The translations under genes and the position numbers were made by a program. Below are positions 15,928 through 49,944 of a DNA stretch of 64,000 bases, in pieces. Within the stretch, counting starts at the first letter, position 1, and each line of letters starts with the position of its first letter. This DNA is from Rhizobium sp. Q54. GTDB taxonomy: Bacteria > Pseudomonadota > Alphaproteobacteria > Rhizobiales > Aestuariivirgaceae. The notes beneath the pieces were generated by a model, which was not told the DNA's origin, did no database searches, and was given only the letters and a program-made list of their open reading frames with translations. Where the stretch lies: assembly GCA_945889445.1 (NCBI GenBank), contig CAMDBX010000012.1, positions 1-64,000 on the forward strand, given 5' to 3'.

Positions 15928-15951
15928 ACACACTGCAGAAAGGAGACGGCG

Positions 15952-16518
15952 ATGAAGGTTCTGGTGGTATTCGATCATCCACGGCGGAATTCTTTCTGCG
16001 GCGCGATCGCCGACAGTCTGATGGCAGGCCTGCGCAGCGCCGGGCATGTTCCGGAATTCGCCAATTTGCGGGCCGAGGACTTCGATCCGCGCCTGCCCGT
16101 GGCCGATGAACCGGACTGGGAGGACCCCGACAAGATCTACTCCGCCGACACCTTGGCCGAGCAGGCACGCATTGCCCGCAATGACGCGATCGCCTTCGTC
16201 TTTCCAGTGTGGTGGTGGTCGGTCCCCGCCACCACCAAGGGCTGGATCGACCGCGTATGGAACAATGGCTGGGCCTATGGCTAACGCAAGCTGAAGCTGA
16301 ACGCGGCGCTCCTCATCGGCACCGCATCGGGCGGGCCCGAAACATATTCAAAGCGTGGCTATGATGATGCGATGCGGGCGCAGCTCAATGTCGGCATCAT
16401 GGAATACTGTGGCATCCCCAAGTCGCATCTCGAGATCATGTATGACGTGATGGAGGACGATGCCACGCGCCGCGTCCTGCTGGACAGGGCGCGGCAGCTC
16501 GGTGCGGGCTGGTTCTGA
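15952..16518 (+). pseudogene. NAD(P)H-dependent oxidoreductase (flavodoxin-2 fold), interrupted by an in-frame TAA at 16282-16284
   Basis: MKVLVVFDHPRRNSFCGAIADSL...VFPVWWWSVPATTKGWIDRVWNNGWAYG*RKLKLNAALLIGTASGGPETYSKRGYDDAM...QLGAGWF*; same frame on both sides of the stop. Confidence 0.85.
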
Positions 16519-16580
16519 TTTTCGTCCTCTCCCGCTGAAGAAGCGGGAGAAGACCTGAGAGCGCGTCTCGCAGCAACCAA

Positions 16581-16859
16581 TCACTCCTCCGTCCTGGCGC
16601 TTCCAATCCGGTTGGAGAGCGCCCAGCGCAGGCTATGGATCTGGTCGACGAGATTGAGGATCACGCCCACGCCTTCCTTGTTGACACCAAGGTCGCCCTG
16701 CAGGTCACGGATCAAGCCCGCACGTGCGAGGTCGGCCTCGGAGAACAGCGGCTCGGGATCAGCCGGTTCGGGCGACAGCCATTCCTCCTCGATCCAGACT
16801 TCCAGGGTCTGCTGGTCGAGTCGGGTACGAAGAAGAAATTCGGTCCTGGTGATGATCAT
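16581..16859 (-). CDS. cbpM: chaperone modulator CbpM
   Basis: 92-aa MerR-like protein ([28 protein letters not shown]...) immediately downstream of a cbpA-type J-protein. Confidence 0.78.
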
Positions 16860-17764
16860 GACTGCATGTCCCGGCGCGGATCATAGCTTGAGCCCGGCGT
16901 CCAGCCGGAGAGGAATGTCTCGAGCTCAGGGTCCGGCTCGCTCGGCACCATGACCTTGAGCTTCACCAGCTCGTCGCCATGTCCGCCACCGCGCTTCGGA
17001 ACGCCCTTGCCCTTGAGGCGCAGCGTCGTGCCCGTGTTGGAGCCCTTGGGCACCGTGGCCATCACCGCCCCGGTCGTCGTCGGCACCTTCACTTTGCCGC
17101 CAAGCACGGCTTCCGAAATGGTGATGGGCAGTTCGACGATAATGTCATCGCCCTCGCGCCTGAAGAAGCGGTGCGGGCGGATGGTGATGGCCACCAGCGC
17201 ATCACCCGCCGGACCCTCACCGCGAGATGGCGCACCCTTGCCGCGCAAGCGCAGCACTTGGCCCTCCTCGATTCCCGACGGAATGGTGACGTCGAGCGAA
17301 CCACCATCGGGCAGCGTGATGCGGCGCGTGGCACCGTTCACGGCGTCGAGGAAATCGACCTCGAGTTCATAGGACCGGTCGGCACCCGGCGCGCGGCGGG
17401 CCTGCTGCTCGCGGCGGCGCAGCAGCTCGGCGAGGAAATCATCCTGCTGGGCAAAATCATCGAAGCCGGACGAGGCGCTCTGGTAGCGCCTTCCCGACGC
17501 GGCCTCCGCATAGTCCTTGTAATAGCGCTCGTGCTGGCGCTCAGCGCCCGTGGCATCAATCTCGCCGGCATCGAAGCGGCGCCGCTTCTCGGTGTCCGAC
17601 AGCAGGTCATAGGCGCCGGCCACCTGCTTGAACTTCTCTTCCGCCGACTTGTCGCCGGGGTTCAGGTCCGGATGCAGCTTCTTGGCCAGCTTGCGGTAAG
17701 CCGACCTGATCTCGTCAGGCGTCGCGGTCTTGGCCACGCCCAGAATTTCATATGGATCTTTCAA
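16856..17764 (-). CDS. cbpA: DnaJ-class (CbpA-like) co-chaperone lacking zinc finger
   Basis: J-domain [32 protein letters not shown]-terminal [15 protein letters not shown]; likely TTG start (LKDPYEILG). Confidence 0.88.
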
Positions 17765-28698: not shown

Positions 28699-29559
28699 TC
28701 AGCGTGGAGGGTTGAAAGCCTCCAGGGATGCCCAGTCATCCGCCGGCAAGACGCTCGCTGGCTCATTCACATTGCGCGTCCACACGAAGAGACAGAGGAA
28801 GGGTGTCTGCCCAACTTTCGTGAGGTGCGGCCGCAGGGACGGGTTCCAGACTGGTTCGCCCGCAGGCTTCACGATCAACGGCCGTCCGGGTGCAAAGCGC
28901 CATCCATGCGGGCCGGTGAGGGGTGCGTAGAGCTCGGGCGCGATGTGGCAGTGATCACGATAAAGAGTGTGGGGCGCGATCAGGAACAGACCCATTTCGA
29001 AATCATCGGCGGCATAGGGTGAATCGCTCCCCACGATGGCGGCGAAGGCATGGCCGTCAGCAAAGCTATCGCCGATCTCGTTCCGGGGGTAGGCATCATA
29101 GCTGACCCAGTCAAGATACGGTGCGGCCGTGGCAATGGCCTTGGCGAGCTGAGGCTGAAAGCCGAAAGCCTCGCGCAAGGCAGGCTCCAGCCAGCGCGTG
29201 GCGATGGGATGAGGTCCTGCCGTCGGGGGCTTGCCAGAGGGGCGGCACCTGGACAGACCGCCGTGCACCTCGGCAGCGCCGGGGTGAGACAGCGTATCCA
29301 GGTAATCCGCCGCAGCGACAAACAGCGCCTGAACACTGCTCTCGGGGCTGCCAGAGGACTGGGGAGGGGCGGGCAAACCCCTGTCCGCGAGAAGCACCAA
29401 CGGATCACGCCCATCGTGCGGAGATGCATCGCGATAGGCGTCGAGTTGCGCTTCGCTGATCACGCCGTTGCAAAAGAGTTCCATGGCTGCGCCATAGCGC
29501 ACCCGGCCGGATCCGGGCACGCCGACCGGCGCATGCAGAAGCAGCAGCGTCTCATCCAT
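28699..29559 (-). CDS. cupin of the dimethylsulfoniopropionate lyase family (PF16867-like)
   Basis: MDETLLLLHAPVG...LYRDHCHIAPELYAPLTGPHGWRFAPG...EPVWNPSLRPHLTKVGQTPFLCLFVWT; contains HxHxxxExY plus downstream RPH. Confidence 0.72.
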   Translation of the reverse strand: MDETLLLLHAPVGVPGSGRVRYGAAMELFCNGVISEAQLDAYRDASPHDGRDPLVLLADRGLPAPPQSSGSPESSVQALFVAAADYLDTLSHPGAAEVHGGLSRCRPSGKPPTAGPHPIATRWLEPALREAFGFQPQLAKAIATAAPYLDWVSYDAYPRNEIGDSFADGHAFAAIVGSDSPYAADDFEMGLFLIAPHTLYRDHCHIAPELYAPLTGPHGWRFAPGRPLIVKPAGEPVWNPSLRPHLTKVGQTPFLCLFVWTRNVNEPASVLPADDWASLEAFNPPR

Positions 29560-30391
29560 TGGCGCGGAAAGCCATCTGCTCATCGTGCTGGCGGCGGCGC
29601 TCAGCGCGATGCATGACGATGCCCGCTATGAGCACGCCGATCGCCACGGTGCCAACCATGAGGGTTGCCAGTGCATTGATGTCGGGGGTGACGCCAAGCT
29701 TGACCTTGGACCAGATGAGAAGTGGCAAGGTGGTGCTGCCGGGGCCGGTGGTGAAGGAAGTGATGACGACGTCATCAAGCGAAATGGTGAAGGCCAGAAG
29801 CCAGCCGGACATGATCGCCGGGAAGATCACCGGAAGCGTCACATCGCGCAGCACCTGCCAGGGACGCGAGCCGAGATCCATCGCTGCTTCCTCAATCGAG
29901 CGGTCAGACTGCAGCATGCGGGCCTGAACGATGGTGGTGACGAAAACCATCGAGAAGGTGATGTGGGCGAGCGTCACGGTGGTGAAGCCGCGCTGCCCGG
30001 GCCAGCCGACCCATTGCGCCATGAGAATGAAAAACATCAGCGAGGAGATGCCGGTGATCACCTCCGGCATGATGAGGGGTGCGGTGACCAGCCCGGAAAA
30101 CAGCAGCCGCCCGCGGAACTTCGTGAAACGGGCGAGGGCTATTCCTGCCATGGTTCCGAGGATGGTCGCAATGCAGGCGGAGACGAAGGCAATTTGCAAA
30201 GATAGGATGAGCGCGTCGATCACCTGCTTGTTGGAGAACAGCGAGACATACCACTTGGTGGAAAATCCACCCCACACGCTGGCCAGCCGCGAAGCATTGA
30301 AGGAATAGACGATCATCGACAGGATCGGGATGTAGAAGAACGCAAAGCCGAAGCACAGCATGCTGAGAAGGAAGGTGTGGCGGCGCTTCAC
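29552..30391 (-). CDS. ABC transporter permease (PotC-like)
   Basis: MKRRHTFLLSMLCFGFAFFYIPILSMIVYSFNASRLASVWGGFSTKWY...EEAAMDLGSRPWQVLRDVTLPVIFPAI. Confidence 0.93.
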   Translation of the reverse strand: MKRRHTFLLSMLCFGFAFFYIPILSMIVYSFNASRLASVWGGFSTKWYVSLFSNKQVIDALILSLQIAFVSACIATILGTMAGIALARFTKFRGRLLFSGLVTAPLIMPEVITGISSLMFFILMAQWVGWPGQRGFTTVTLAHITFSMVFVTTIVQARMLQSDRSIEEAAMDLGSRPWQVLRDVTLPVIFPAIMSGWLLAFTISLDDVVITSFTTGPGSTTLPLLIWSKVKLGVTPDINALATLMVGTVAIGVLIAGIVMHRAERRRQHDEQMAFRANG

Positions 30392-31302
30392 TTGGAGCCC
30401 TCCGCCTTGGCCTGGAAATGGCCATAGATCATGGCGGGCACCACCATCAGTACCAGCAGCACCACCGCGATGGACGACGCCATGGGCCAGTCACGGGCGG
30501 AGGAGAACTGGTCGGAGATCACGCGTCCGATCATCGGGCTCGCGGCGTCGCCCACCAGCGTGGGGATCACCAGTTCGCCGGCCGCCGGAATGAACACCAG
30601 CATGCCGCCGGCAACAATGCCGGGAATGCTTTGCGGAAGCGTGACGTCGAGAAACACCTGCCAGGGTCTTGATCCGAGGTCGAGGGCAGCCTCGTCGAGC
30701 GTCGGGTCGAGCCGTTCGAGGCTGGCATAAAGCGGCAGGATCATGAAGGGCAGGTAGGTGTAGACCATCACCAGCACGACGGCGAAGTTCGAGTGCATCA
30801 TCGGCATGAAGTCGACGGCCCATCCGGCCGGCACCAGCGCATTCCAGATCTTCGTGATGCCCACGTTGAACCAGCTCGACTTGCCCATCAGTCCCATCCA
30901 CGCGTAGACCCGCAACAAAAAGGAGGTCCAGAAGGGGAGGATGACCAGCATAAGAAGAATGTTGCGCCAGCTCTTGGACACACGGGTGAGGGCCAACGCC
31001 ATGGGATAGCCGATCAGCAGGCAGAAGACGGTGGCAATGCCGGCACTGACCAGGGACGTGATGAAGGAGCGGAAGTAAAGCGTATCCGAAACTGCGCGGA
31101 CATAGCCCTGCAGGTTGATCAGCGGATAGTCTCCGCCGAAGGAGAAGGGAGGTGCTGTTGATGTCTTCGTGGCGACACTCATCCCCACGACGATTAGAAA
31201 TGGCAGGAGGAAAAACAGAAGCAGCCAGATGTAGGGCGCGGCAATCAGCACATCTGACCAGCCCCTGCGATCGAACCAGCCTGATAGGCGCTTGCCCCCC
31301 AT
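30388..31302 (-). CDS. ABC transporter permease (PotB-like)
   Basis: LDEAALDLGSRPWQVFLDVTLPQSIPGIVAG; multiple TM segments; 4-bp overlap. Confidence 0.93.
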   Translation of the reverse strand: MGGKRLSGWFDRRGWSDVLIAAPYIWLLLFFLLPFLIVVGMSVATKTSTAPPFSFGGDYPLINLQGYVRAVSDTLYFRSFITSLVSAGIATVFCLLIGYPMALALTRVSKSWRNILLMLVILPFWTSFLLRVYAWMGLMGKSSWFNVGITKIWNALVPAGWAVDFMPMMHSNFAVVLVMVYTYLPFMILPLYASLERLDPTLDEAALDLGSRPWQVFLDVTLPQSIPGIVAGGMLVFIPAAGELVIPTLVGDAASPMIGRVISDQFSSARDWPMASSIAVVLLVLMVVPAMIYGHFQAKAEGSK

Positions 31303-31306
31303 CGCC

Positions 31307-32410
31307 CTACTCCGTCAGCACGATGGCCGAGGACGGGTCGAAGGAAATCCACACCCGGTCATCCCAGTCGGCGGCGCGCGTCGCCTCGCCACCGCGGCTT
31401 GCATTCACGGCATGCGCCTGGACAAGTGCCCCGGAAGGAAGGACGACGCGATACAGGCTGTCCTTGCCGAAATAGGCGAGGTCCTTGACGGTTCCCTGAA
31501 ATGCGTTGGCGCCCTCCGGGCGTTCCTTCGAGATGTGAAGCTTCTCCGGGCGAATGGCGAGCGTCGCCTCCTGCCCTTCCACGAGCCCCGGCACGTCGCG
31601 CGCCAGGACATCGCCTCCCAGTGCCGGAACCGAGAGGCGTAACTGCTTGGAAACGCGTTCGACCACAGTGACTGGAAACGAGGTGATGGAGCCGATAAAA
31701 TCGGCCACAAAGCGACTGTTGGGAAATTCGTATACCTCGCCGGGCTTGCCGATCTGCCTCACCTCGCCCTTGTCCATGACCGCGATGCGGTCGGACAGGG
31801 TCATCGCCTCTTCCTGGTCATGGGTGACGACGATGAAAGTGACGCCGGTGCGATGCTGGATCGACATCAGCTCGAACTGGGTGCGCTCGCGCAGCTTCTT
31901 GTCCAGCGCCGCAAGCGGCTCGTCCAGCAGAAGCAGCTTGGGCTGGCGGGCAAGGGCCCTCGCCAGCGCCACGCGCTGGCGCTGGCCGCCGGAGATCTGG
32001 TGCGGCTTGCGCGTGGCATAGGGAACCAGCTGCACGAGTTCCAGCATCTCCCGCACCCGGTCGGCTTTCTGCTGGCTGCTCATCGCCTCATGCTTCAGGC
32101 CATAGCCAATGTTCTTCTCCACACTCATGTGCGGGAACAGTGCATAGGACTGGAACATCATGTGCACGGGTCTGCTCCATGGCGGAACCCCGGTCATGTC
32201 GCGCCCGTCGAGGAAGATCTTTCCCGAGGATGGCTCTTCAAAACCCGCCAGCATGCGCAGCAGCGTGGTCTTGCCGCAGCCGGAGCCGCCGAGGAGCGAG
32301 AAGATCTCGCCCTTGGCGACATCGAGCGAGACATCCTTCACCGCCTGGAAAGAACCGAAGAACTTCGAGACGTTCTCAATCCTGAGGAAGGGCTCACCCG
32401 CCGCGGCCAT
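31307..32410 (-). CDS. ABC transporter ATP-binding protein (PotA-like)
   Basis: [55 protein letters not shown]. Confidence 0.94.
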   Translation of the reverse strand: MAAAGEPFLRIENVSKFFGSFQAVKDVSLDVAKGEIFSLLGGSGCGKTTLLRMLAGFEEPSSGKIFLDGRDMTGVPPWSRPVHMMFQSYALFPHMSVEKNIGYGLKHEAMSSQQKADRVREMLELVQLVPYATRKPHQISGGQRQRVALARALARQPKLLLLDEPLAALDKKLRERTQFELMSIQHRTGVTFIVVTHDQEEAMTLSDRIAVMDKGEVRQIGKPGEVYEFPNSRFVADFIGSITSFPVTVVERVSKQLRLSVPALGGDVLARDVPGLVEGQEATLAIRPEKLHISKERPEGANAFQGTVKDLAYFGKDSLYRVVLPSGALVQAHAVNASRGGEATRAADWDDRVWISFDPSSAIVLTE

Positions 32411-32414
32411 GATG

Positions 32415-33524
32415 TCAGCCGCCCGTCTTGATCTCTGTCCAGGTCCGGGTGAGTGCTTCTTCCTGCTCCGGCGTCATCGGTGCGAGCGTGAACAGCCGTT
32501 CCTTGGTGGCGGCATCAGGGTAGACTGCGGGATCGCCCGAGATGGACGGGTCGACCAGCGCCGTTGCCGCCTTGTTGGCGTTGGCATAGCCGATGAAGTT
32601 GGTGGCGGCGGCAACCACTTCGGGCCGCAGCAGGTAGTTGAGGAAGGCATAGGCGTTGTCGACGTTCTTCGCATCCGAGGGAATGGCCCACACGTCGAAC
32701 CACGCGGGCGCACCGGACTTCGGCACGAAGTATTCAAGATCGAGCTTGATGCCTGCATCTGCTGCGCGCTTCTTGGCCACGCCATAGTCGCCTGACCAGC
32801 TGTTGACGGCACAGACCTCGCCGTTGGGCAGGGTGGTAAGATAGTTGGTGTTGTCGAAGGTGGCGATGTAGGGCCTGATCTTGGCGAAGGCCTCGGCCAG
32901 CTTCTTGTAGTCATCAGGCCCGGCCTTGTTCGGGTCGATGCCCAGCCACTTCATCACGACCGGCCCGATGTCGTTGGGGCTGTCGAGGATGGACAGGCCG
33001 CAGGAGGCGAGCTTCTGGGCATTGTCGGGATTGAAGACGGTGTCGAGGCTGTTGAAGTCGGCGTCCGGCAGCACCTTCTTCACGAGATCCATGTTGTAGG
33101 TGAAGCCGACCGTTCCCCAGGTGTAGGGAACGCCATATTCATTGCCAGGGTCGAAGCCCTGAAGGATCGTCAGGATCTCGGGATCGAGGTTGCCCCAGTT
33201 GCTGAGCTTTGCCTTGTCAAGCTTCTGGTAGACCTTGGCCGTGACCATGCGGGGCAGATTGAGACCCGACTGCAGCACCACGTCATAACCCGACGAGCCG
33301 GCCAGCATCTTGGCCTCCATCTCCTCGGTGCTGGCATACATGTCGTAGACGACCTTGATGCCAGTTTCCTTGGTGAAGTCGGCGACGGTGCTTTCGCCAA
33401 TGTAGTCGGCCCAGTTGTAGACGTTCACCGTTCCGGCATCGGCACGTGCACGGCGCACATAGGGCATCGCAAGTCCAGCGGCGGCACCCATCGTGACCAG
33501 TGCATGACGTCGGGTAAGTTTCAT
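32415..33524 (-). CDS. ABC transporter substrate-binding protein (PotD/PotF-like)
   Basis: MKLTRRHALVTMGAAAGLAMPYVRRARADAGTVNVYNWADYIGESTVADFTKETGIKVVYDMYASTEEMEAKMLAGSSGYDVV. Confidence 0.94.
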   Translation of the reverse strand: MKLTRRHALVTMGAAAGLAMPYVRRARADAGTVNVYNWADYIGESTVADFTKETGIKVVYDMYASTEEMEAKMLAGSSGYDVVLQSGLNLPRMVTAKVYQKLDKAKLSNWGNLDPEILTILQGFDPGNEYGVPYTWGTVGFTYNMDLVKKVLPDADFNSLDTVFNPDNAQKLASCGLSILDSPNDIGPVVMKWLGIDPNKAGPDDYKKLAEAFAKIRPYIATFDNTNYLTTLPNGEVCAVNSWSGDYGVAKKRAADAGIKLDLEYFVPKSGAPAWFDVWAIPSDAKNVDNAYAFLNYLLRPEVVAAATNFIGYANANKAATALVDPSISGDPAVYPDAATKERLFTLAPMTPEQEEALTRTWTEIKTGG

Positions 33525-33558
33525 TCATTCCTCCCGGAAGGTTTGGTTTTTTGCCAGC

Positions 33559-34776
33559 CTAGAACGAGTTGGTCGGCTGGCAAATTAAATCTTCGTTCGA
33601 GCGGGAGAGATGGCATTCCGGCGGCGGTTCGGCCAGCGTCATCACCGGCATCAGCCTGCGCAGGCCATCATGGTGTCGCCGCAACCCATACTCGAGGTCA
33701 GAGAGATGGAAGCCCTCGAAGGCGTCCGATTTCATCGACTCATTCGACCAGATGGAGAGTTGCTGGTCCTCAGCCGAGGTGAGGCGATCGATGCGGAAGG
33801 CGAGATAGCGGGCGAGCCTGGTCTGGCGGCTCTCGTCCGGCCAGCGGTACATGCGGCCGGTGAGCCGCGTGCGGCCCGGCCCCACGGGAATTTCCTGGTA
33901 GAACTGCGCTCCTTCCGGCGTGATGGAGAAGACCGCGTTGGGAAACAGCCCGTAATAGGTCCAGGCCTTCTGCAGATGAGCGGGAAGGTCCTCCCGGGGC
34001 GGCGAGATGCGGACGTAGTTCTTCACCGACCAACCGCGCGCCATGCCTTCATCGAACCAGCCGATTGACACCGAGAGGCCATTCTCAAGATGCAGGTCGC
34101 GGTAAGTGCGGCCGTAAAGTTCCTGCAGGCTCGGATGGGCGAGCGCCACGTGATAGCCCTCGTTGTCCACATCGCGCACCGACTTCCAGTTCACCGGCAG
34201 TTCCGATGTCCAGTCGAGATTGCGCACCGGCAGCAGCTTTTCGAGGCCATAGGCGGCAAAGTCGGTCTCGTAGGGCGCAAGCAGATCAGCCACCGAAGGC
34301 TGCGGTCCATCCTTGAAGCGGAGGAAGATGAAGCCGTGGAAAATCTCCATCTCGATCGGCTTCAGCCCGAACTCCTCGCGGTTCATATCGCCGAAGCTGG
34401 AGGGCCGTGCAGCACCCCTCAACGTGCCGTCGAGATTATAGACCCAGCCATGGAATGGGCAGACGATGGCGCCCTTGCAATGGCCCTTTGTGCCGTCGAC
34501 CACGCGCGCGCCGCGATGGCGACAGAGATTGTGGAAGGCGCGCACCACGCCATCATTGCCGCGCATCACCACTGCGCGCTCGCCAATCAGGTCGAAGGCC
34601 AGCCAATCTCCGGCAGCAGGAATATCGCCGACGTGCCCAACCACCTGCCAGTGGGTGAGGAAGAGCTTGTCGCGCTCGAGATCGAACAGGGCGGGCGAGT
34701 GATAGGTCCACGCCGGCAGGCCGCCGCGGTTCCAGTCGTTCGGGACAGGAATTGTATCGTAGGGCAGTGCAGTCAT
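33559..34776 (-). CDS. Rieske non-heme iron (aromatic ring-hydroxylating type) oxygenase alpha subunit
   Basis: NLCRHRGARVVDGTKGHCKGAIVCPFHGWVYNLDGTLRG; NWKSVRDVDNEGYHVALAHPSL. Confidence 0.93.
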   Translation of the reverse strand: MTALPYDTIPVPNDWNRGGLPAWTYHSPALFDLERDKLFLTHWQVVGHVGDIPAAGDWLAFDLIGERAVVMRGNDGVVRAFHNLCRHRGARVVDGTKGHCKGAIVCPFHGWVYNLDGTLRGAARPSSFGDMNREEFGLKPIEMEIFHGFIFLRFKDGPQPSVADLLAPYETDFAAYGLEKLLPVRNLDWTSELPVNWKSVRDVDNEGYHVALAHPSLQELYGRTYRDLHLENGLSVSIGWFDEGMARGWSVKNYVRISPPREDLPAHLQKAWTYYGLFPNAVFSITPEGAQFYQEIPVGPGRTRLTGRMYRWPDESRQTRLARYLAFRIDRLTSAEDQQLSIWSNESMKSDAFEGFHLSDLEYGLRRHHDGLRRLMPVMTLAEPPPECHLSRSNEDLICQPTNSF

Positions 34777-35912
34777 GCGTGCGTCTCCATTTCGTTCAGC
34801 ACCCACTGGTGAAAGCGGTGGATCTCATATTCCTCCGGCATGAGACGCGCGGCCCGGAAGGCGGGCGAGCGCATGCCGCGCTGGTTCATTTCTGAGGCAG
34901 CACCGTCCTGCTCGATGACGATCTTGGCGAAGCCGGCAACCGCTTCCGCATCAAACCCGTCCTGTGCAAGCGTCGCTTCAGGGAAGTGCCATTCGGCGAT
35001 GAGGCGGGTGCGTTCGGGTGCCATCGGCTGGATCCGGACGGACCGCACGTAATCGACATGCGCCACAATGTAGGTTGAGGGCCACAACGTCACAAAGCTG
35101 TAGCCCGCAAGCCTTTCGGCGTCGGAGAGACCGGGGAACACCGGTCCGCAGGGCTCGCCGGTCACGGTCCAGCTCTTCGCACCGGCGCGCAGATTGGGGC
35201 GTGCCTGCTCATCCGGTGTCCAACCGAGCGCCTCGGACTGGCCCATGATGCCCTTGCCGTAGATCGGCACCATGTCGCAGAGCTCTGGGTGAATGCCGGG
35301 GCAGTGCAGGCATTCCGAATAGTTTTCCCAGAATGCTTTCCAGTTGCAGGCGATCTCGGTTTCCCAGCGGTGACCCGTAACAAGACTGGACATCGGCCAG
35401 TTGTCGAGCGTGCGCAGGCCGACGTCGGCATAGAGATCGCCCGGCGCGGCGTCGAGATTGAGGAACAAAAAACCGTTCCACTCGCGGCACGTCACGCGCT
35501 TCAGCCCATGCGCGGACCTGTCGAAGTCATCCGTGGGAATGGCATGACCGGTTGCAACCAGCGCACCGTCAGAAGCCGCGAATGCGAAAGCATGATAGGG
35601 GCAACGAATGAGCTTGCCGAGCGGCTCGCGCTCGGCGCGGCAGAGTTCAGCCCCACGGTGCGGGCAGGAGTTGTGGAACGCGGAAACCGCCCCGTCGACG
35701 GTGCGCGCAACGATCACGGGCGCCGCGCCCACCTGCACCCGCTGCATCTGGCCCGGGGTGAAATCAGCCACCCTGCCCACCATCACCCATTGCCGCGAAA
35801 ACACCGTCGCCATCTCGCGCGCGAACCAGGCGGCATCCTGATAGGCCTCACGCGGGAGGCCTTCCGGGCAGCGCGCAAGGCGTGGCGAAAGCGGGTGGCG
35901 CTCGAGTCCCAT
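34773..35912 (-). CDS. Rieske non-heme iron oxygenase alpha subunit (GbcA-like)
   Basis: NSCPHRGAELCRAEREPLGKLIRCPYHAFAF; NWKAFWENYSECLHCPGIHPEL; ATGA overlap with downstream Rieske gene. Confidence 0.92.
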   Translation of the reverse strand: MGLERHPLSPRLARCPEGLPREAYQDAAWFAREMATVFSRQWVMVGRVADFTPGQMQRVQVGAAPVIVARTVDGAVSAFHNSCPHRGAELCRAEREPLGKLIRCPYHAFAFAASDGALVATGHAIPTDDFDRSAHGLKRVTCREWNGFLFLNLDAAPGDLYADVGLRTLDNWPMSSLVTGHRWETEIACNWKAFWENYSECLHCPGIHPELCDMVPIYGKGIMGQSEALGWTPDEQARPNLRAGAKSWTVTGEPCGPVFPGLSDAERLAGYSFVTLWPSTYIVAHVDYVRSVRIQPMAPERTRLIAEWHFPEATLAQDGFDAEAVAGFAKIVIEQDGAASEMNQRGMRSPAFRAARLMPEEYEIHRFHQWVLNEMETHA

Positions 35913-36059
35913 TACATTCTCCCCGGCATGTTACAGCTGTCTTCCATCGGTCGGACGAAAACAGGCTGCCATTTGACTGGTTGAACTGTCAATCAACTTC
36001 TTCCAGTTTGCTCTTCTGGGCTGATGGTTTAGAAAAATGGCAATGAACAAGGTCTTTTC

Positions 36060-36716
36060 GTGACAAACACCGTGTCTGCCCCACCGGCCCGCACGCCGCG
36101 CACCTTGAGCCGCGAAGAACGCCGCGTACAATTGTTTGAGGCAACGCTCGCGGCCATAGCAGAGTGCGGCTTTTCCCGCACCACCCTGACCGAGGTGGCG
36201 CGCCGCGCCGGCCTTTCGCACGGCTTGGTGCTGTTCCACTTCGAGACCAAGGAGAAGCTCCTCGTCGAGACGCTCGATTATCTCTCGGAGGAGTACAGGA
36301 AGAACTGGCAGGCCACGCTCGATGGTTCCGGTCCAGCGCCTGAGCAGAAACTGGCAGCCCTCATCAACGCCGATTTCAGCCCGCAGGTCTGCCAACCCAG
36401 CCGCATCAATGCCTGGTCCGCCTATTGGGGCGAAAGCCAGAGCCGCCCGCTCTATCTTTCGAAATGCGGCGAGAATGATGAACTCTACATCCGGACGCTG
36501 GAGGGATTCTGCGCTGGGATGAATTCCGCGCACGGCTACCAGATCGATCCGGCGCGTGCCGCACGGCTGATCCGCATCACCACCGAAGGCACATGGCTGG
36601 AGATGACGACGCTGCTCAATCCCTATGACGTGCGGGAAGCCAAGGCCACCGTGTGGACGTGCGCCCAGCTGCTCTATCCGCGACACTTCGGGCCAGAAGG
36701 CCCGCTCGGCCGTTAG
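36060..36716 (+). CDS. TetR family regulator, BetI-like
   Basis: HTH CGFSRTTLTEVARRAGLSHGLVLFHFETKEKLL; NAWSAYWGESQSRPLYLSKCGENDELY resembles BetI C-terminal region; GTG start. Confidence 0.87.
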   Translation: MTNTVSAPPARTPRTLSREERRVQLFEATLAAIAECGFSRTTLTEVARRAGLSHGLVLFHFETKEKLLVETLDYLSEEYRKNWQATLDGSGPAPEQKLAALINADFSPQVCQPSRINAWSAYWGESQSRPLYLSKCGENDELYIRTLEGFCAGMNSAHGYQIDPARAARLIRITTEGTWLEMTTLLNPYDVREAKATVWTCAQLLYPRHFGPEGPLGR

Positions 36717-36728
36717 GCTTCACTGAAA

Positions 36729-37289
36729 TCAGGGATAGAACTGGTCGTCGCCGATGCTGAACCACATCGGCTTTTTGGTCCATTTCGGATAGATGCAGTT
36801 CTTGAACTTGCAGTTCATCTGCTGCGGGTTGCGCGCCTGCCATTCGGTGGCCTCCGAGGATACGCGCAGCCGTACCGCTTCCTTGAGCTGGTTGTAGTGC
36901 TGGTCGCGCAGCAGCGGCGCCAGCGGAAAGCCTCCCGCGGCCGCCAGTTCGAACCAGAACAGCGCCTTGGCGGGATCCTGCCGCACGCCGCGCCCGTTGC
37001 CGTAAAAGCGACCCGTCATGTATTGCGCGTCCGCGAGGCCCTGGTAGCCAGCCCTCTTGTACCATTCGAGTGCCAGCTTGAAGTTGCGCGGCACGCCAAG
37101 GCCGTCGTCATAGGCCACGGCAAGGCTGTACTGCGCCCAGGGGTCGCCCTGCTGTGCCAGCGGCCTGAACAGCGCCACCGCCTCCCCGTAGTTGCCGGCA
37201 CGATAGGCGGACAGGCCCTGCGCCAGCTCACCCGCCTGGGCGGGCTGAAGCCAGAAAAGCAGGACAAGGATCGCAACAATTCGTTTCAT
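36729..37289 (-). CDS. Sel1/TPR-repeat secreted protein
   Basis: Signal peptide MKRIVAILVLLFWLQPAQAG; AQYSLAVAYDDGLGVPRNFKLALEWYKRAGYQGLADAQYMTGRFYGNGRGVRQDPAKALFWF. Confidence 0.85.
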   Translation of the reverse strand: MKRIVAILVLLFWLQPAQAGELAQGLSAYRAGNYGEAVALFRPLAQQGDPWAQYSLAVAYDDGLGVPRNFKLALEWYKRAGYQGLADAQYMTGRFYGNGRGVRQDPAKALFWFELAAAGGFPLAPLLRDQHYNQLKEAVRLRVSSEATEWQARNPQQMNCKFKNCIYPKWTKKPMWFSIGDDQFYP

Positions 37290-37398
37290 CCGGCGGTCCA
37301 GGAGAATCACGTTGGCGGCAGTCTAGCGGGAATTCCCGGAAAAGGTGAGGGCTGCCGCCATATTCGTTGCCTTCGCAATCGCGAAACAGCGGCCTTGT

Positions 37399-37441
37399 CT
37401 GTTTAGTGATTTCGTGTTCAGTAAACACAATCACTAAACAG
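37399..37441. promoter_or_regulatory. 43-bp dyad upstream of dhaL (operator or 5'-UTR hairpin)
   Basis: CTGTTTAGTGATT-TCGTGTTCAGTAAACAC-AATCACTAAACAG: perfect 13-bp outer arms and inner GTGTT/AACAC; ends 15 bp before ATG 37457. Confidence 0.75.
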
Positions 37442-37456
37442 TGGACCAAAGGCCCG

Positions 37457-38059
37457 ATGGCACTTCCCCTCGATACCCTGCTCGACACGCTTTCGGCCCG
37501 CATCATTGCGGCTGCGGAAGAACTGACAGAACTCGACTCAGCCATCGGTGATGCCGACCACGGCCTCAACATGAAGCGCGGCTTCGAGGCGGTGCAGGCA
37601 GAACGGACGAACATCCTCGCCAAGCCCACCGGAGAGGCCCTCAAGACGGTCGGCATGACGCTGGTCATGAAGGTGGGCGGCGCCTCGGGCCCACTTTACG
37701 GCACGCTGTTCATGACGCTCGGCAAGGAGTTGCCGGAAGATCCCACGCTTGCCGACATCGGCCGTGCGCTGCAGGCATCGGTGGTGGCGCTCAAGGCGCG
37801 CGGCAAGGCCGAAGTCGGCAACAAAACCATGCTCGATGTGCTTGGCCCCGTCGCGGCGCATCTCGAATCCGGCACGGCCAGCCTCGACAGCGTGCGCGCA
37901 CTCGCCACGGCAAGCGCCAGGGCCACCATCCCCATGAAGGCAATCCGTGGCCGCGCGTCATTCCTGGGTGACCGCTCCATCGGTCACATGGACCCGGGCG
38001 CGCGGTCGAGCGAAATCCTGATCACAGCGGTCTGCGACGTGCTGGAGGGCAAGTCATGA
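37457..38059 (+). CDS. dhaL: dihydroxyacetone kinase subunit DhaL
   Basis: DSAIGDADHGLNMKRGF, MKVGGASGPLYGTLFM, KAIRGRASFLGDRSIGHMDPGARSS. Confidence 0.94.
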   Translation: MALPLDTLLDTLSARIIAAAEELTELDSAIGDADHGLNMKRGFEAVQAERTNILAKPTGEALKTVGMTLVMKVGGASGPLYGTLFMTLGKELPEDPTLADIGRALQASVVALKARGKAEVGNKTMLDVLGPVAAHLESGTASLDSVRALATASARATIPMKAIRGRASFLGDRSIGHMDPGARSSEILITAVCDVLEGKS

Positions 38060-38442
38060 CGGTCGGCATCGTCATCGTCTCGCATTCGCCCGATGTGGCG
38101 AAGGGTGCCGCCGACATGGTGCGCCAGATGGTCGGCAACGACGTGCCCCTGGGCTTCTGCGGCGGCAACCCGGATGGCGGCCTCGGCACCAGCGTGGAGA
38201 AGATCCTCGCCGCCATCGATGCGGCTTGGTCGGAGGACGGCATCGCCATCCTGGTCGACCTCGGCGGGGCGGAGACCAACAGCGAGATGGCGATCGAGAT
38301 GTTGCCCGAGGAGAAACAGAAGAAGATCGTCATCTGCAACGCCCCCGTGGTCGAGGGCGCGGTGATGGCCGCAACGGAAGCCTGGGGCGGCGGCTCGCTG
38401 GCTGACGTGAAGCGCACTGCAGAGGAGTTGTCGCCGCAATGA
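38056..38442 (+). CDS. dhaM: PTS-dependent dihydroxyacetone kinase phosphotransferase subunit DhaM (EIIA domain)
   Basis: MTVGIVIVSHSPDVAKGAADMVRQM...ILVDLGGAETNSEMAIEML. Confidence 0.92.
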   Translation: MTVGIVIVSHSPDVAKGAADMVRQMVGNDVPLGFCGGNPDGGLGTSVEKILAAIDAAWSEDGIAILVDLGGAETNSEMAIEMLPEEKQKKIVICNAPVVEGAVMAATEAWGGGSLADVKRTAEELSPQ

Positions 38443-38732
38443 GCGAGACCGCGAATGGATCGGTGGTGATCACCCATGACGTGGGCCTGCATGCCCGGCC
38501 TTCGGTGAAGCTCACCAAGCTTGCGAAGGGCTTCGCCTCGACGCTGGAAATCGCCGGAACGGCAGAGGGCCCGTGGGTCGATGCCAAGAGCATCGTCAAG
38601 GTGATGGCGATGAAGGCGAAACAGCATTCGACGCTGTTCGTGCGCGCGACCGGAGCGGATGCGCAGGCCGCCGTCGATGCCGTGATCTCGCTCGTGCGCC
38701 GCGATTTCGACGAAGCGGGCGATGGGCACTAG
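38439..38732 (+). CDS. HPr family phosphocarrier protein
   Basis: VVITHDVGLHARPSVKLTKLAKGF; SIVKVMAMKAKQHSTLFVRATG. Confidence 0.93.
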   Translation: MSETANGSVVITHDVGLHARPSVKLTKLAKGFASTLEIAGTAEGPWVDAKSIVKVMAMKAKQHSTLFVRATGADAQAAVDAVISLVRRDFDEAGDGH

Positions 38733-40302
38733 CCACCAGGGAACCAGCGCCTCCGACGGGCTGTTCCTCGGCCCGCCGCGAAGGCTCGGCTCCGCTCTGG
38801 CCGAGCGGCAGGGAACCGGAAGTTCCGAAGGCGAGCGCGCCGCGCTGCAGGATGCAATTGCGCTTTCCGTCACTGACCTCGCAGTCCTTATGGACCGCGT
38901 CGACGGCGAGGCGCAGGATATTCTAGGCTTTCAGGTGGCCATGCTGGAGGACGACGCGCTGGCGGCGCCTGCCCTTTCGGCAATCGACAGCGGAACGCCC
39001 GCGCATGTCGCATGGTCCGCAGCACTCGACGGCGAGATCGCAGGCTATGAAGCCTCTGAAGATGACTACTTCCGTGCCCGCGCTGCCGACTTGCGTGACA
39101 TCCGTGATCGCGTGCTGCGCAACCTCTCGGGTGGCGAGTCCTCCCGCAGCCCCTCCGGCGCCGTGCTGGTTGGCGAGGACATTGCCCCCACCACCTTCCT
39201 TGAAACCGACTGGAGCGCCGGCGGCGCCATCGTGCTGATGCGCGGCAGCACCACCAGCCACGTCGCCATGCTGGCGCGGGCGCGCGGCATTCCCATGGTG
39301 GTTGGCATGGGTAAACTGCCCGAACATGCCGTGATGATTGCCGTCGATGGTGGCAGCGGAACCGTGCTGGCTGATCCCGATGACTTACAGCGCGCAGCCT
39401 TCAACGCCGCGCTCGCCTCTGACGCGCAGGCGCGCGGCCTCGAGGAGCAGTTCCGCCTTCGCCCTGCTACGCGCCGCAGCGGTGCACGCATCGACATTCT
39501 GATCAATGTGGCCGGCGTCGAGGAGCTCGATCACATCGATCTTTCCTCCTGTGACGGCATCGGCCTCATGCGGTCCGAATTCCTGTTCCGTGACGGGGCG
39601 CCACTACCTGACGAGGAGACGCAGTACCGCGCCTATCGTCGCTTCGTCGAATGGGCGGTGGGCAAGCCCGTCACCATCCGAACGCTCGACATCGGTGGCG
39701 ACAAGCCGGTGCGTGGGTTGACGCCCGATGGCGAGGCCAATCCCTTCCTCGGGTTGCGCGGCGTGCGCCTCACGCTGGCGCGCGAAGACGTGTTCCGCAC
39801 CCAGTTGCGCGCGCTGGCGCGTGCCGCCGTGCATGGCAACCTCAAGGTCATGGTTCCCATGGTCACGGTTCCGGACGAGATCACCCGTTGCGCCGCGCTG
39901 TTTGATGCCTGCGTGGCCGAACTCGATGCGCAGGGCATTGCGGCCCACAGGCCGCCACTCGGCATCATGGTGGAAGTTCCCGCCGTGGCCGTGATGCCAG
40001 AACTCTTCGATGCAGCGGCCTTCTTCTCCATCGGTTCCAACGACCTCACGCAGTACGTGACGGCCTCTTCGCGCGATGATGCGCGGGTCGCGGCGTTGAA
40101 CGATCCATCTCACCCCGCCGTCACGGCGCTCATTTCCAAGGTCGCGCAGTACGGCAGAGGGGCGGGCATACCCGTCAGCCTGTGCGGCGACATGGCAAGC
40201 GAGCCGCGGCACCTCGCAACGCTTCTCGACGCAGGTCTCACTTCGCTCTCCGTCGCGCCCGCGCGCATTGCCCGCCTCAAGGCGGCGATCGCGGAACTCT
40301 GA
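38722..40302 (+). CDS. phosphoenolpyruvate-protein phosphotransferase (PTS enzyme I)
   Basis: MRGSTTSHVAMLARARGIPMVVG (active-site His); GIGLMRSEFLF; LDIGGDKPV; IGSNDLTQYV. Confidence 0.94.
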   Translation: MGTSHQGTSASDGLFLGPPRRLGSALAERQGTGSSEGERAALQDAIALSVTDLAVLMDRVDGEAQDILGFQVAMLEDDALAAPALSAIDSGTPAHVAWSAALDGEIAGYEASEDDYFRARAADLRDIRDRVLRNLSGGESSRSPSGAVLVGEDIAPTTFLETDWSAGGAIVLMRGSTTSHVAMLARARGIPMVVGMGKLPEHAVMIAVDGGSGTVLADPDDLQRAAFNAALASDAQARGLEEQFRLRPATRRSGARIDILINVAGVEELDHIDLSSCDGIGLMRSEFLFRDGAPLPDEETQYRAYRRFVEWAVGKPVTIRTLDIGGDKPVRGLTPDGEANPFLGLRGVRLTLAREDVFRTQLRALARAAVHGNLKVMVPMVTVPDEITRCAALFDACVAELDAQGIAAHRPPLGIMVEVPAVAVMPELFDAAAFFSIGSNDLTQYVTASSRDDARVAALNDPSHPAVTALISKVAQYGRGAGIPVSLCGDMASEPRHLATLLDAGLTSLSVAPARIARLKAAIAEL

Positions 40303-40304
40303 AC

Positions 40305-40739
40305 ATGACGCAGGCATCCACAAACCAAACGCCACAGGATGCGGTTGCCGCCTACAAGCGCTTGCTGGCGGCAATCATCGATCGTCGGCCATCGGGCACA
40401 CGCCAGCGGCTGGCCACCGCACTCGCCAAGAACCGCAGCTTCGTGAGCCAGATCACGAACCCCACATATCCGACGCCCATTCCGGCCAGCCATCTGGCGC
40501 AGATCTTTGAGGTCTGCCATTTCTCAGGTCCTGAGCGGCAGGAGTTCACCAGGCTGTATGCCCGCGCGCACCCGAAGAAGATGCTGGCCGAGACACCGGC
40601 AAGCGGTGCCACGGTGGTCGAACTGCCGGACCTTGGCGACGAGATGCGCAACAAGAAACTGCAGGGGCTGGTCAGCGCCTTCGTGCGGGACATTGCAAAG
40701 CTGATCGAAGACGAACGGGAAAAAGGGAAACGGCGATGA
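40305..40739 (+). CDS. HTH-like protein in dha operon
   Basis: TRQRLATALAKNRSFVSQITNPTYPTPIPASHLAQIFEVCHFSGPERQEF; ATGA overlap with dhaK. Confidence 0.65.
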   Translation: MTQASTNQTPQDAVAAYKRLLAAIIDRRPSGTRQRLATALAKNRSFVSQITNPTYPTPIPASHLAQIFEVCHFSGPERQEFTRLYARAHPKKMLAETPASGATVVELPDLGDEMRNKKLQGLVSAFVRDIAKLIEDEREKGKRR

Positions 40740-41719
40740 AAAAACTCATCAACGACGTGTCGACGGTGCTCACGGAGAGCCTGGACGGTTTCGTGGCCGC
40801 ACATGGCGACATCATCACGCTTGGGCCTGAGCACAAGTTCGTGCAACGCAAGGTGCTGAAGCGAGGCAAGGTGGCGTTGCTATCAGGCGGTGGCGCCGGC
40901 CATGAGCCCTTGCATGCGGGCTTCGTTGGCCATGGCATGCTCGATGCCGCCTGTCCGGGCCAGGTCTTCACCTCGCCCACGCCCGACCAGATGATCGCCG
41001 CGGCAGAGGCCGTGGATACCGGTGCGGGCGTCCTGTTCATCGTCAAGAACTACGAAGGCGACGTCATGAACTTCGACATGGCGCGCGAGATGGCGGGTCG
41101 CGACATCGAGACCGTCATCACCGATGACGACGTCGCCGTCGAGAACTCGCTCTACACCACCGGCCGCCGCGGCGTTGCCGGCACGCTGGTGGTCGAGAAG
41201 GTGGTCGGCGCGGCAGCTGAGCAAGGAGCCGACCTCAAGAGCCTCAAGGCACTGGGCGACAGGGTGAACCGCGCCACCCGCTCCATGGGTGTGGCGCTCA
41301 CCAGCTGCACCGTGCCTGCTGCCGGCAAGCCCACCTTCGACATCGGCCCGACCGAGATGGAAATGGGTGTGGGCATCCACGGCGAACCCGGCCGCCGCCG
41401 CGTAACATTGCGCACGGCGAATGAGATCGCCGAGGAGATGGTCGCCGCCATCGCGGGCGACCTCAATGTGAAGGGAAATGCCCTGCTCTTCGTCAACGGC
41501 TTCGGCGGCACGCCGTCGATGGAGCTTTACCTCATGTACAACGCCGCCGTCGCGCAGCTGGCCAAGCACGGCATCATGCCGGTCCGTTCACTTGTCGGCA
41601 GCTATGTCACGTCGCTCGACATGGCCGGCTGTTCGATTACCGTCACCATGCTGGATGACGCGATCACCAAGGGCTGGGATGCGCCCGTTCACACCCCTGC
41701 CCTGCGCTGGGGACTCTAA
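40736..41719 (+). CDS. dhaK: dihydroxyacetone kinase subunit DhaK
   Basis: LLSGGGAGHEPLHAGFVGHGMLDAACPGQVFTSPTPDQM; NYEGDVMNFDMA; GVGIHGEPGR. Confidence 0.95.
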   Translation: MKKLINDVSTVLTESLDGFVAAHGDIITLGPEHKFVQRKVLKRGKVALLSGGGAGHEPLHAGFVGHGMLDAACPGQVFTSPTPDQMIAAAEAVDTGAGVLFIVKNYEGDVMNFDMAREMAGRDIETVITDDDVAVENSLYTTGRRGVAGTLVVEKVVGAAAEQGADLKSLKALGDRVNRATRSMGVALTSCTVPAAGKPTFDIGPTEMEMGVGIHGEPGRRRVTLRTANEIAEEMVAAIAGDLNVKGNALLFVNGFGGTPSMELYLMYNAAVAQLAKHGIMPVRSLVGSYVTSLDMAGCSITVTMLDDAITKGWDAPVHTPALRWGL

Positions 41720-43113
41720 CGCTGGCCGAGAAGGTTGGCGACGGAGAAGGCCTGCTGCACCTGTTCCTCCGTCATCAACCCCTCGGAAAGGACGACATCG
41801 CGGATGCTGCGGCGTGACTTCAGCGCCGTCTTTGCCACGCGGCTTGCCGCTTCATAGCCGATATAGGGGTTGAGAGCCGTCACGGTGACAAGCGAACCCT
41901 CGAGCAGTTCCGCACAACGCTCGCGGTCAGCCTCGATGCCGACGATGCACTTCTCGCGGAGCACCGCCATGCCGCGGAGCAGCATGCGCATCGACTGCAT
42001 GATGTTGAGAACGATGACCGGCTCCATGGCGTTGAGCTGCAACTGGCCTGCCTCCGCCGCGAGTGTCACGGTCAGGTCGTTGCCGATCACCTGATAGGCA
42101 ATCTGGTTGACCACCTCCGGGATGACCGGGTTGACCTTGCCCGGCATGATCGAGGAGCCCGCCTGCACCGCCGGAAGCCTGATCTCGCCCAAGCCAGCGC
42201 GCGGCCCCGAGTTCAAGAGACGCAAGTCGTTGCAGATCTTGGAGAGCTTCACGGCGATACGCTTCAGCACGCTGGAGAAGGTGACGAAGGCCCCGAGGTC
42301 GGAGGTCGCCTCGATAAGGTCTGCCGCGGGCACCATCGGCACGCCGGATATCTCCGCCAGGTTGCGGATGACGCGCTCCGAATAGCCTTCCGGCGTGTTG
42401 ATGCCGGTGCCGATCGCCGTGCCGCCCAAGTTCACCTCGCGCAGCAGGCCGGCGAATTCCTTGAGGCGCTCGATGTCCTCGGCAACCGTCACCGCGAAGG
42501 CGCGGAACTCGGATCCCAGCCGCATCGGCACCGCATCCATCAACTGCGTGCGGCCAACCTTGATGACGTCGTCGAATTCCCTGGCCTTGGCCATCAGCGC
42601 CTCGACCAGCAGCCGCTGCTCCTCGATCAGGGCCGGGCAGGCGCGCAGCACGGTGAGCCGCACCGCGGTGGGATAGACGTCGTTCGTCGACTGCGACAGG
42701 TTCACGTGGTCGTTGGGATTGATCGTGGCGTAATCACCACGCGGCTTGCCGAGCAGCTTGAGGGCGAGGTTGGCGATCACCTCATTGGCATTCATGTTGG
42801 TGGAGGTTCCGGCACCGCCCTGCAGCATGTCGACCACGAAGTCGTGATGCTCGTCGCCCGCGATGACCAGGTCGCAGGCCGAGACGATGGCCTGGGCAAC
42901 CTCCGGCTTCAGACGTCCAAAGTCGCGGTTGGCCAGCGCCGCCGCCTTCTTGACCATGGCGAGTGACTCGATGAGTTCCGGGAAGTGCGCCAGCGTGATG
43001 CCGGTGATGGGGAAGTTCTCCACCGCCCTTGCGGTGTGGATGCCGTAGTCTGCCTCCGCTGGAATTTCCATTTCGCCGATGGAATCACGTTCGGTGCGCA
43101 TGCGCCGCATCAT
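41716..43113 (-). CDS. aspA: aspartate ammonia-lyase
   Basis: EIPAEADYGIHTARAVENFPITG, NPNDHVNLSQSTNDVYPTAVRLTVL, GSSIMPGKVNPVIPEVVNQIAYQVIGND. Confidence 0.93.
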   Translation of the reverse strand: MMRRMRTERDSIGEMEIPAEADYGIHTARAVENFPITGITLAHFPELIESLAMVKKAAALANRDFGRLKPEVAQAIVSACDLVIAGDEHHDFVVDMLQGGAGTSTNMNANEVIANLALKLLGKPRGDYATINPNDHVNLSQSTNDVYPTAVRLTVLRACPALIEEQRLLVEALMAKAREFDDVIKVGRTQLMDAVPMRLGSEFRAFAVTVAEDIERLKEFAGLLREVNLGGTAIGTGINTPEGYSERVIRNLAEISGVPMVPAADLIEATSDLGAFVTFSSVLKRIAVKLSKICNDLRLLNSGPRAGLGEIRLPAVQAGSSIMPGKVNPVIPEVVNQIAYQVIGNDLTVTLAAEAGQLQLNAMEPVIVLNIMQSMRMLLRGMAVLREKCIVGIEADRERCAELLEGSLVTVTALNPYIGYEAASRVAKTALKSRRSIRDVVLSEGLMTEEQVQQAFSVANLLGQR

Positions 43114-43237
43114 CAAGCTCCCATTTCGCCGTTGCCCTGTTGCCGGGGCGTTTTCTTGGAATGTATACTGCAATCATAGGATGGAACGGAGCTTGCCGCC
43201 CCTGAAATCGGCGCAATGCTCTCACCCGTGGAAAATC

Positions 43238-48422: not shown

Positions 48423-48880
48423 TCACACCGCTTGGCCGGTCTCCGATGCGATCCAATCGGCAAAGTTTCGAACCTGCGGCCGCTCGCGTGCCTCCCGTGT
48501 CATGACGAGGTCGTAGCCGATGCTGGTGTCAAGCATCACGCCGAAAGGATCGACCAGAAGCTTGGCGTCGATGATGTCCCGCAGGATCGGATGGCTGCCA
48601 AGCACAAGCCCTTGCCCCGCGATGGCCGCGTGAAGGGCGAGATTGTAGCCGCCAAAAACGATCTGCCGCTCCAGTGAGACGTCTGTCATGCCTGCCCTTG
48701 CGAGCCATGACTGCCAATCCATCAAGTCTCTGGTAGAGGTCGCCTAGGTCAGGTCGGACGTATCCCAATGCAACAGCGTCGCATGCCGCAGGTCATCAAG
48801 CTTCCGGAGTTGCGGTGCTCCTGACACCAGAGAGGGGCTGCACAGTGCGCAGATCCTTTCATCGAACAGCCCCGACACCG
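48423..48880 (-). pseudogene. LysR family regulator remnant (C-terminal effector domain only, in-frame TAG at 48744-48746)
   Basis: Reverse frame: VSGLFDERICALCSPSLVSGAPQLRKLDDLRHATLLHWDTSDLT*ATSTRDLMDWQSWLARAGMTDVSLERQIVFGGYNLALHAAIAGQGLVLGS; no HTH; stops upstream of the homology. Confidence 0.88.
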
Positions 48881-49944
48881 TGATGGGCGTCTATGCCGGG
48901 CGCTACTACAGCGTCTTCAACGCGGAGGATGTGGAGGGCGGCTACTGGACGCTCAGGCGCAAGGCCGTGCTCTATGACGTGCCGGAACGTCCTGTCGAGA
49001 TTTCAGGTCCTGATGCGGAGCGGTTCCTCGAACATGTCTTCGCACGCCGCATCTCCACGCCGCAGGAGGGCCGTGGCCGCTATGCCATCGCCTGCGATCA
49101 CATGGGCCATCTCTTCATGGACGGCGTCCTCTTCAGGCTGGCGGAGAACCACTTCTGGTACGTCCAGCCCGACGGCGCGCTGGCGACCTGGCTGCTTGCC
49201 CACAGCGCGGGCTTCGATGTTTCGGTCAGCGATCCACGATCCCGCGTTCTGCAGATACAGGGCCCGGCGTCACTTGCCATCATGTCGGCAGCGACCGACG
49301 GCGCCATCACGCAGGCCATGGGCTACTTCCATTCCGGCTTCTTCACCATCGCCGGGCAGCAGGTCTATGTCTCGCGCACCGGCTGGACCGGCGAAATGGG
49401 CTATGAAGTCTATACGCAAGGTTCCGCCACCGACTGCGGCCGGTTGTGGGATTGGCTCATGTCTGTGGGCCAGCCGCATGGCATGATCTTCGGCAGCATC
49501 TCGTCAATGGAGATGCGCCGCATAGAGGCGGGCATCCTCGACAACGGCACCGACTTCGACCTGACCATGACACCCTTCGAAGCCGGGCTCGACAGCTTCG
49601 TCGACCTCGACAAGCCGGACTTCATCGGGCGGAAGGCGCTGCTCGCTGCAGACCGAAATGCGAAACAGTTCTTCGGGCTGAAATGTCCTGGCGGCATTCC
49701 GGGTTATCGCGAAGTGATCCTGGATGGAGCGCGGGCCGTCGGCCACGTTACAGCGGGTGCGTGGTCTCCCTTCCTTGCCTCAGGCATCGGCTATGTGCGC
49801 TTCGATGCGCCAGGTGACTGGGCAGGCAGCAGGCTTCAGGTCAAGACCTCGGAGAATGGGGTGCTCGACTGCGAGATCATCGACCTGCCGTTCTACGATG
49901 TTGAGAAACGCATCCCGCGCGGGCTTGACCGAAGCGAGGTCTGA
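48880..49944 (+). CDS. GcvT/DmdA-like aminomethyltransferase family protein, apparently 5'-truncated
   Basis: GGYWTLRRKAVLYDVPERPVEISGPDAERFLEHV...GWTGEMGYEVYTQGSA...RRIEAGILDNGTDFDLTMTPFEAGLDSFVDLDKPDFIGRKALL; conserved N-terminal ~20-25 residues missing, no SD at GTG 48880/ATG 48883. Confidence 0.8.
   Translation: MMGVYAGRYYSVFNAEDVEGGYWTLRRKAVLYDVPERPVEISGPDAERFLEHVFARRISTPQEGRGRYAIACDHMGHLFMDGVLFRLAENHFWYVQPDGALATWLLAHSAGFDVSVSDPRSRVLQIQGPASLAIMSAATDGAITQAMGYFHSGFFTIAGQQVYVSRTGWTGEMGYEVYTQGSATDCGRLWDWLMSVGQPHGMIFGSISSMEMRRIEAGILDNGTDFDLTMTPFEAGLDSFVDLDKPDFIGRKALLAADRNAKQFFGLKCPGGIPGYREVILDGARAVGHVTAGAWSPFLASGIGYVRFDAPGDWAGSRLQVKTSENGVLDCEIIDLPFYDVEKRIPRGLDRSEV

Follow-up and report, generated by a model that had tools for sequence, protein, structure and literature searches.

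The window (the whole stretch analysed, 64,000 nt of contig CAMDBX010000012.1 of Rhizobium sp. Q54) contains one real, conserved operon in which two Rieske oxygenases, a Pot-type ABC importer and a cupin of the DMSP-lyase fold lie opposite a divergent TetR gene (Table 1). By a narrow balance of probability, we read it as a system for TetR-controlled uptake and oxidative N-demethylation of an N-methylated, polyamine-like dicationic amine, with an additional step carried out by the cupin. The N-demethylation, the class of substrate and the cupin chemistry are each predicted, and our confidence in any particular substrate is low.

Table 1. Features of the operon and its divergent regulator, in window coordinates
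Feature	Position	Strand	Evidence
TetR-family regulator	36060..36716	+	BetI-like HTH, TetR_C_6; divergent from operon; TetR_N 41.1 bits, TetR_C_6 28.7 bits (Pfam)
putative TetR operator TTGAACTGTCAATCAA	35980..35995	+	within invariant block 35976-35999, divergent intergenic region
Rieske oxygenase alpha subunit B	34773..35912	-	Pfam Rieske + Ring_hydroxyl_A; PDB 3n0q 7e-41, Stc2 3vca/4qup 7e-36
Rieske oxygenase alpha subunit A	33559..34776	-	Pfam Rieske + Ring_hydroxyl_A; PDB 6y8j (CntA) 6e-32
periplasmic binding protein, PotF/SpuD type	32415..33524	-	Pfam SBP_bac_8; PDB PotF/SpuD/SpuE about 1e-105
ABC importer ATPase, PotG/PotA type	31307..32410	-	Pfam ABC_tran + TOBE_2; TIGR01187 potA 388.7 bits
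ABC permease 1, PotH/PotB-like	30388..31302	-	Pfam BPD_transp_1; PotH 287.7 bits, below cut-off
ABC permease 2, PotI/PotC-like	29552..30391	-	Pfam BPD_transp_1; PotI 321.3 bits, below cut-off
orphan N-terminal helical domain of cupin protein ('cupN')	29332..29559	-	AF2 pLDDT 92.2
PF16867 DMSP-lyase-like cupin domain	28699..29331	-	PF16867 over cut-off; best Foldseek matches DddQ 4b29/4la3/5cu1

All eight open reading frames described in the sequence-only reading are present at their coordinates in the ORF list of the window, and its picture of a TetR gene divergent from a tightly packed minus-strand run was confirmed in coordinates, gene families (Pfam, NCBIfam) and packing. Successive gaps from Rieske B to the cupin are -4, +34, +4, +4, -4 and -8 bp, an operon-like packing from which co-transcription would be expected; the first of these follows from an ATG at 34776 within a Rieske A reading frame that opens at 34806. 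Scans for sigma-70 promoters and terminators gave results near background, and no Rieske reductase gene occurs within the cluster. Beyond TetR, and adjoining it, lies a gene for a small repeat protein, Sel1-like by eye (36729-37310, minus strand), that also adjoins the operon in four other Aestuariivirga genomes. Beside the cluster, a dihydroxyacetone kinase gene set (37367-41719, plus strand) comprises a DhaK that exceeds its cut-off, a DhaL-like ORF and a protein resembling PTS enzyme I; a gene of the aspartase/fumarase family comes next (41716-43173).

A neighbourhood search with the cupin, proposed in the sequence-only reading for the combination of cupin, two Rieske proteins and PotABCD, recovered the order Rieske B, Rieske A, Pot-type importer, cupin in about 60 of 80 loci, mostly from Rhodobacteraceae but also from Aestuariivirga, the host genus (including A. 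litoralis KCTC 52945). In about eleven species of the latter the block is present in whole or in large part, its proteins being 47-94% identical. This synteny within the genus and across the cupin-fetched loci indicates that the block is not a chance arrangement. Among the 80 loci, Rieske A occurs in 64, cupN in 63, the binding protein in 62 and Rieske B in 56, followed by an amidohydrolase (42), a GcvT-type protein (41), two FAD oxidoreductases (36 and 39) and a methyltransferase (34); because the cupin served to choose the loci and contig ends truncate many of them, these figures are co-occurrence counts and not independent samples. No description of the operon was found in the literature searched, in keeping with the first impression that the combination is not a described pathway.

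The window operon is a shorter version of a fuller one, to which Rhodobacteraceae and Aestuariivirga often add the two FAD oxidoreductases (conceivably PYROXD2-like), the GcvT-type protein, the amidohydrolase and the methyltransferase. A complete example is carried on a plasmid of Fuscovulum ytuae, where a TetR gene divergent from the rest is followed by genes for an aminotransferase, two FAD oxidoreductases, an aminomethyltransferase, two Rieske proteins, a polyamine binding protein, an ATPase, two permeases, a 'DMSP lyase family' protein, an amidohydrolase and a methyltransferase; most neighbours overlap or are separated by a few bases. In the fuller operons the aminotransferase is of class III, the GcvT protein has GcvT and the folate domain of TMAO demethylase as its nearest relatives, with every score under the cut-off, and the amidohydrolase is an Amidohydro_3 protein with weak similarity to HutI. 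None of the GcvT, methyltransferase and aminotransferase genes adjoins the window operon; query searches of the same genome found no close homologue of the first two, and an amidohydrolase homologue (67%) on contig C122, where it adjoins a second ABC importer. Relatives that lack the cupin, in Shinella and Parasedimentitalea, keep a Rieske A homologue and an ABC importer, together with a varying selection of the FAD proteins, GcvT and a TMADH-like enzyme. In another cluster with a different importer (L106), a ~525-aa ORF (15946-17523, minus strand) resembles MttB-family trimethylamine methyltransferase, with 27.8% identity to the L150 protein, an apparent alternative demethylation route.

An indication of what is imported comes from the binding protein, which aligns over its full length with PotF, SpuD and SpuE. 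Its residues W38, D40, Y41, D185, W243, D246, W275, D277 and Y313 are conserved in 64-66 of 66 orthologues and correspond to W37, D39, Y40, E185 (here Asp), W244, D247, F276 (here Trp), D278 and Y314 of PotF, in a numbering and with pocket roles that we take to be those of PotF; the acidic and aromatic pocket (D39, E185, D247, D278, W37, Y40, W244, Y314) is thus complete, with E185 as Asp. Such a pocket, with acids at both ends, leads us to expect a dication and speaks against DMSP, glycine betaine, carnitine or stachydrine, so that uptake of a zwitterion of this kind, as originally proposed, is not supported by the residues; this conclusion must be tempered by the ability of PotF relatives to change ligand, which leaves the pocket suggestive only. 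Further differences from PotF among the window orthologues are S38 to Ala, Ser or Gly and S87 to mostly hydrophobic residues, and the extra Trp could accommodate N-methyl groups. The importer resembles PotFGHI and SpuDEFGH in its set of components as well as in these pocket residues, and its ATPase exceeds the TIGR01187 potA cut-off (388.7 against 355.6 bits). It differs in lying under the curated PotF, PotH and PotI cut-offs (binding protein 373 bits, NCBIfam PotF cut-off 636) and in its linkage to Rieske oxygenases.

The oxygenases had been likened to quaternary-amine demethylases, and this affinity was borne out: the closest solved structure to Rieske A is the carnitine monooxygenase CntA, and those closest to Rieske B are 3n0q and then the Stc2 demethylase. 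Both have a Glu at the CntA/Stc2 position, three residues before the first iron-ligand His, so that the Rieske Cys/His set, the iron ligands and this Glu, as expected of a GbcA-type demethylase, are all present. In Rieske A (415-aa numbering) C95/H97/C116/H119, E216, H219, H224 and D347 are invariant across 69 orthologues, as are the Rieske Cys/His residues, E200, H203, H208 and D336 of Rieske B across 59. From this affinity and these conserved residues we infer N-dealkylation by both enzymes. CntA, GbcA and Stc2 share with them the Rieske and catalytic domains, the Glu and homology in the N-terminal half; unlike those systems, the operon has two different alpha subunits side by side and lacks a reductase gene, no alignment with CntA was obtained for the C-terminal half of Rieske A, and both proteins fall well below the GbcA equivalog cut-off (NF058607; 129.7 and 157.4 bits against 670).

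The cupin gene encodes a fusion. Its 29559 start, adopted in the sequence-only reading, is probably right because it gives the same 8-bp permease overlap as the annotated Fuscovulum gene, but an additional N-terminal domain had been missed. This domain, cupN, spans residues 9-84 of the 294-residue ORF, forms four helices in the AlphaFold2 model (~76 residues) and carries the motif GSGRxRYxAAM. No relative emerged from Pfam, NCBIfam or PDB, whether by sequence or fold, apart from weak TPR matches in 3 of 31 members, and a sample of 288 other alphaproteobacterial genomes, with up to 20 candidates scored in each, yielded no copy. In eight loci of the host genus (L047-L049, L191-L195) cupN is a separate gene of ~65-85 aa directly after permease 2; no PF16867 domain follows in five of them, and in two a small ChrR-type cupin is found instead. 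The absence of PF16867 from these five shows it to be dispensable to the unit, and the separate occurrence of cupN, with or without that partner, identifies the importer/oxygenase unit as the partner of cupN.

The remainder of the protein passed the proposed check against PF16867 (70.7 bits, and 72 in a second scan; cut-off 27) and has the HxHxxxExY and RPH motifs described in the sequence-only reading, the former as HCHIAPELY. In 294-aa numbering the metal and tyrosine residues are H211, H213, E217, Y219 and H253, the last four invariant and H211 present in 69 of 71 homologues (Arg in two); the window clade also has a fixed signature, YRDHxHxAPELYxPLTGPHGWRF. With the AlphaFold2 model (pLDDT 92.6) as query, the top Foldseek matches are without exception DddQ structures, followed by DddY and DddK. 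The likeness to these enzymes (PF16867, or DLL family) thus extends to the fold, the HxHxxxE...H metal ligands and a catalytic-type Tyr. By contrast, identity to DddQ is 19-20%, the extra domain and the clade signature are its own, and the surrounding genes encode Rieske enzymes and a polyamine-type importer. A tree of 49 PF16867 domains, with DddQ represented by PDB sequence fragments, places the window clade as sister to clade B, that of one paralogue in the same genome, and apart from DddQ, and no acrylate or DMSP genes occur among the identified recurrent neighbour families. The fold is therefore that of a DMSP lyase, but the suggested DMSP lyase function is not supported. The same genome has two further PF16867 genes. 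A second PF16867 clade, represented there on contig C42 (L051) and in a congener (L053), has a creatinase-like M24 ORF and an MttB-family protein in its vicinity and, in the congener, also a Rieske B homologue (66% identity); 'creatinase-like' is a reading of the letters, and NCBIfam gave no match at the threshold used.

The regulator had been described as BetI-like, a label its scores do not sustain: 89.8 bits against a TIGR03384 cut-off of 201.3, and 86.7 against 118 for NF001978. It resembles the regulator of BetI-controlled choline genes in its HTH, TetR_C_6 domain and divergent arrangement, but it has its own conserved candidate operator, and no bet genes were found adjoining it. The divergent intergenic region contains a strongly conserved block in five species. 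Upstream of every one of the 21 TetR orthologues that are at least 45% identical, its 16-bp core, YTGAAYTGTCAATCAA, can be matched with 0-3 mismatches; among random 510-bp stretches the figure is 1.15%. Common descent of the loci accounts for some of this conservation, though the site is still kept at TetR identities near 50%. It also precedes the aminotransferase gene in Fuscovulum and occurs in a cluster with a different importer (L110); no convincing further copies were found in the window's own genome. TetR would be expected to bind this candidate operator.

Evidence for methyl groups comes also from relatives in the host genus. In L047-L049 a 672-residue flavoprotein gene lies between cupN and the cupin domain (cupC); the protein is nearest to histamine and trimethylamine dehydrogenases and has the Tyr of TMADH (residue 60 there) together with the histamine-dehydrogenase Asp where TMADH has Trp. 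Given the roles that we take these positions to have, the pair is consistent with a methylated dication. A homologue in the window's own genome stands alone on contig C6. That genome (4.9 Mb) has unusually many methylamine-type genes, with 20 GcvT-domain matches and six TMADH-like proteins close to the L047 enzyme (48-61% identity); within the window, a 354-aa GcvT-type protein (48880-49944, plus strand) has TMAO demethylase (C-terminal part) and DMSP demethylase as its best NCBIfam models, both well below cut-off. The suggestion of methylated-onium catabolism survives in part: the demethylase-like Rieske pair and the GcvT, TMADH-like and FAD genes of related operons favour it, and its zwitterion substrates and DMSP lyase are not supported.

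In the mechanism we favour, the TetR-type regulator would control a single divergent operon, and the PotFGHI-type importer would bring in a polyamine-like dicationic amine with N-methyl groups. The two Rieske non-haem iron oxygenases, served by a reductase from elsewhere, would oxidatively remove N-alkyl groups with release of formaldehyde, and the metal-dependent cupin would act on a downstream intermediate, DMSP not being its main substrate; its most likely chemistry would be a tyrosine-assisted abstraction of a proton next to a carboxylate that eliminates an amine. In the fuller relatives the class III aminotransferase, two FAD oxidoreductases and amidohydrolase, with the folate-binding GcvT protein or the TMADH-like dehydrogenase, would complete the route. 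Weighing against this mechanism are the lack of a Rieske reductase gene in the cluster, the absence of GcvT, methyltransferase and aminotransferase genes beside the window operon, and a cupin domain that five relatives do without. A narrower version, put forward as a tentative possibility rather than an expectation, is an alphaproteobacterial pathway for N-methylated diamines or polyamines in which the fusion of the cupin and the new helical domain performs a C-N lyase step.

The fully polyamine-type pocket would also suit unmethylated polyamines such as spermidine, with Rieske hydroxylation next to nitrogen breaking them and the cupin eliminating an aminopropionate-type fragment, and the class III aminotransferase and FAD oxidoreductases of fuller operons fit such a route; we consider it unlikely, as the GcvT/TMAO-demethylase-like and TMADH-like partners point to methyl groups and the Rieske proteins have their affinity with quaternary-amine demethylases. 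Those Rieske relatives, CntA and Stc2, are also what would be expected if betaine, carnitine, stachydrine or DMSP were taken up and demethylated beside a true DMSP lyase, for which the PF16867 score, DddQ fold and catalytic motif speak as well. That zwitterion system is distinctly improbable in view of the polyamine-type pocket, the cupin's distance from DddQ in both tree and identity, the lack of acrylate-handling genes among the identified recurrent neighbours and the freshwater or reactor origin of several hosts (record titles). To an operon for a methylated guanidine or a cyclic, amidine-type cation such as a creatinine-like compound, its ring opened by the amidohydrolase, we give very little credence: guanidinium cations could fit the pocket, the fuller operon has its weakly HutI-like Amidohydro_3 enzyme, and the clade-B cupin of the same genome lies near the creatinase-like ORF, but that label has the standing described above and the operon itself contains no guanidine-specific enzyme.

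PF16867 proteins are routinely annotated 'DMSP lyase family', a label that can feed counts of DMS-producing genes, and the title of Lei et al. 2018 (cited in PMC8163506) describes the family as including enzymes of unknown function. A C-N lyase step, if true, gives a natural role to part of this 'unknown function' branch. A large, syntenic, TetR-controlled branch with a polyamine-type importer and Rieske enzymes would suggest that many PF16867 proteins are not DMS producers, and would offer a testable system for the functions of the family and for how Rhodobacteraceae of freshwater, sediment and wastewater turn over methylated amines.
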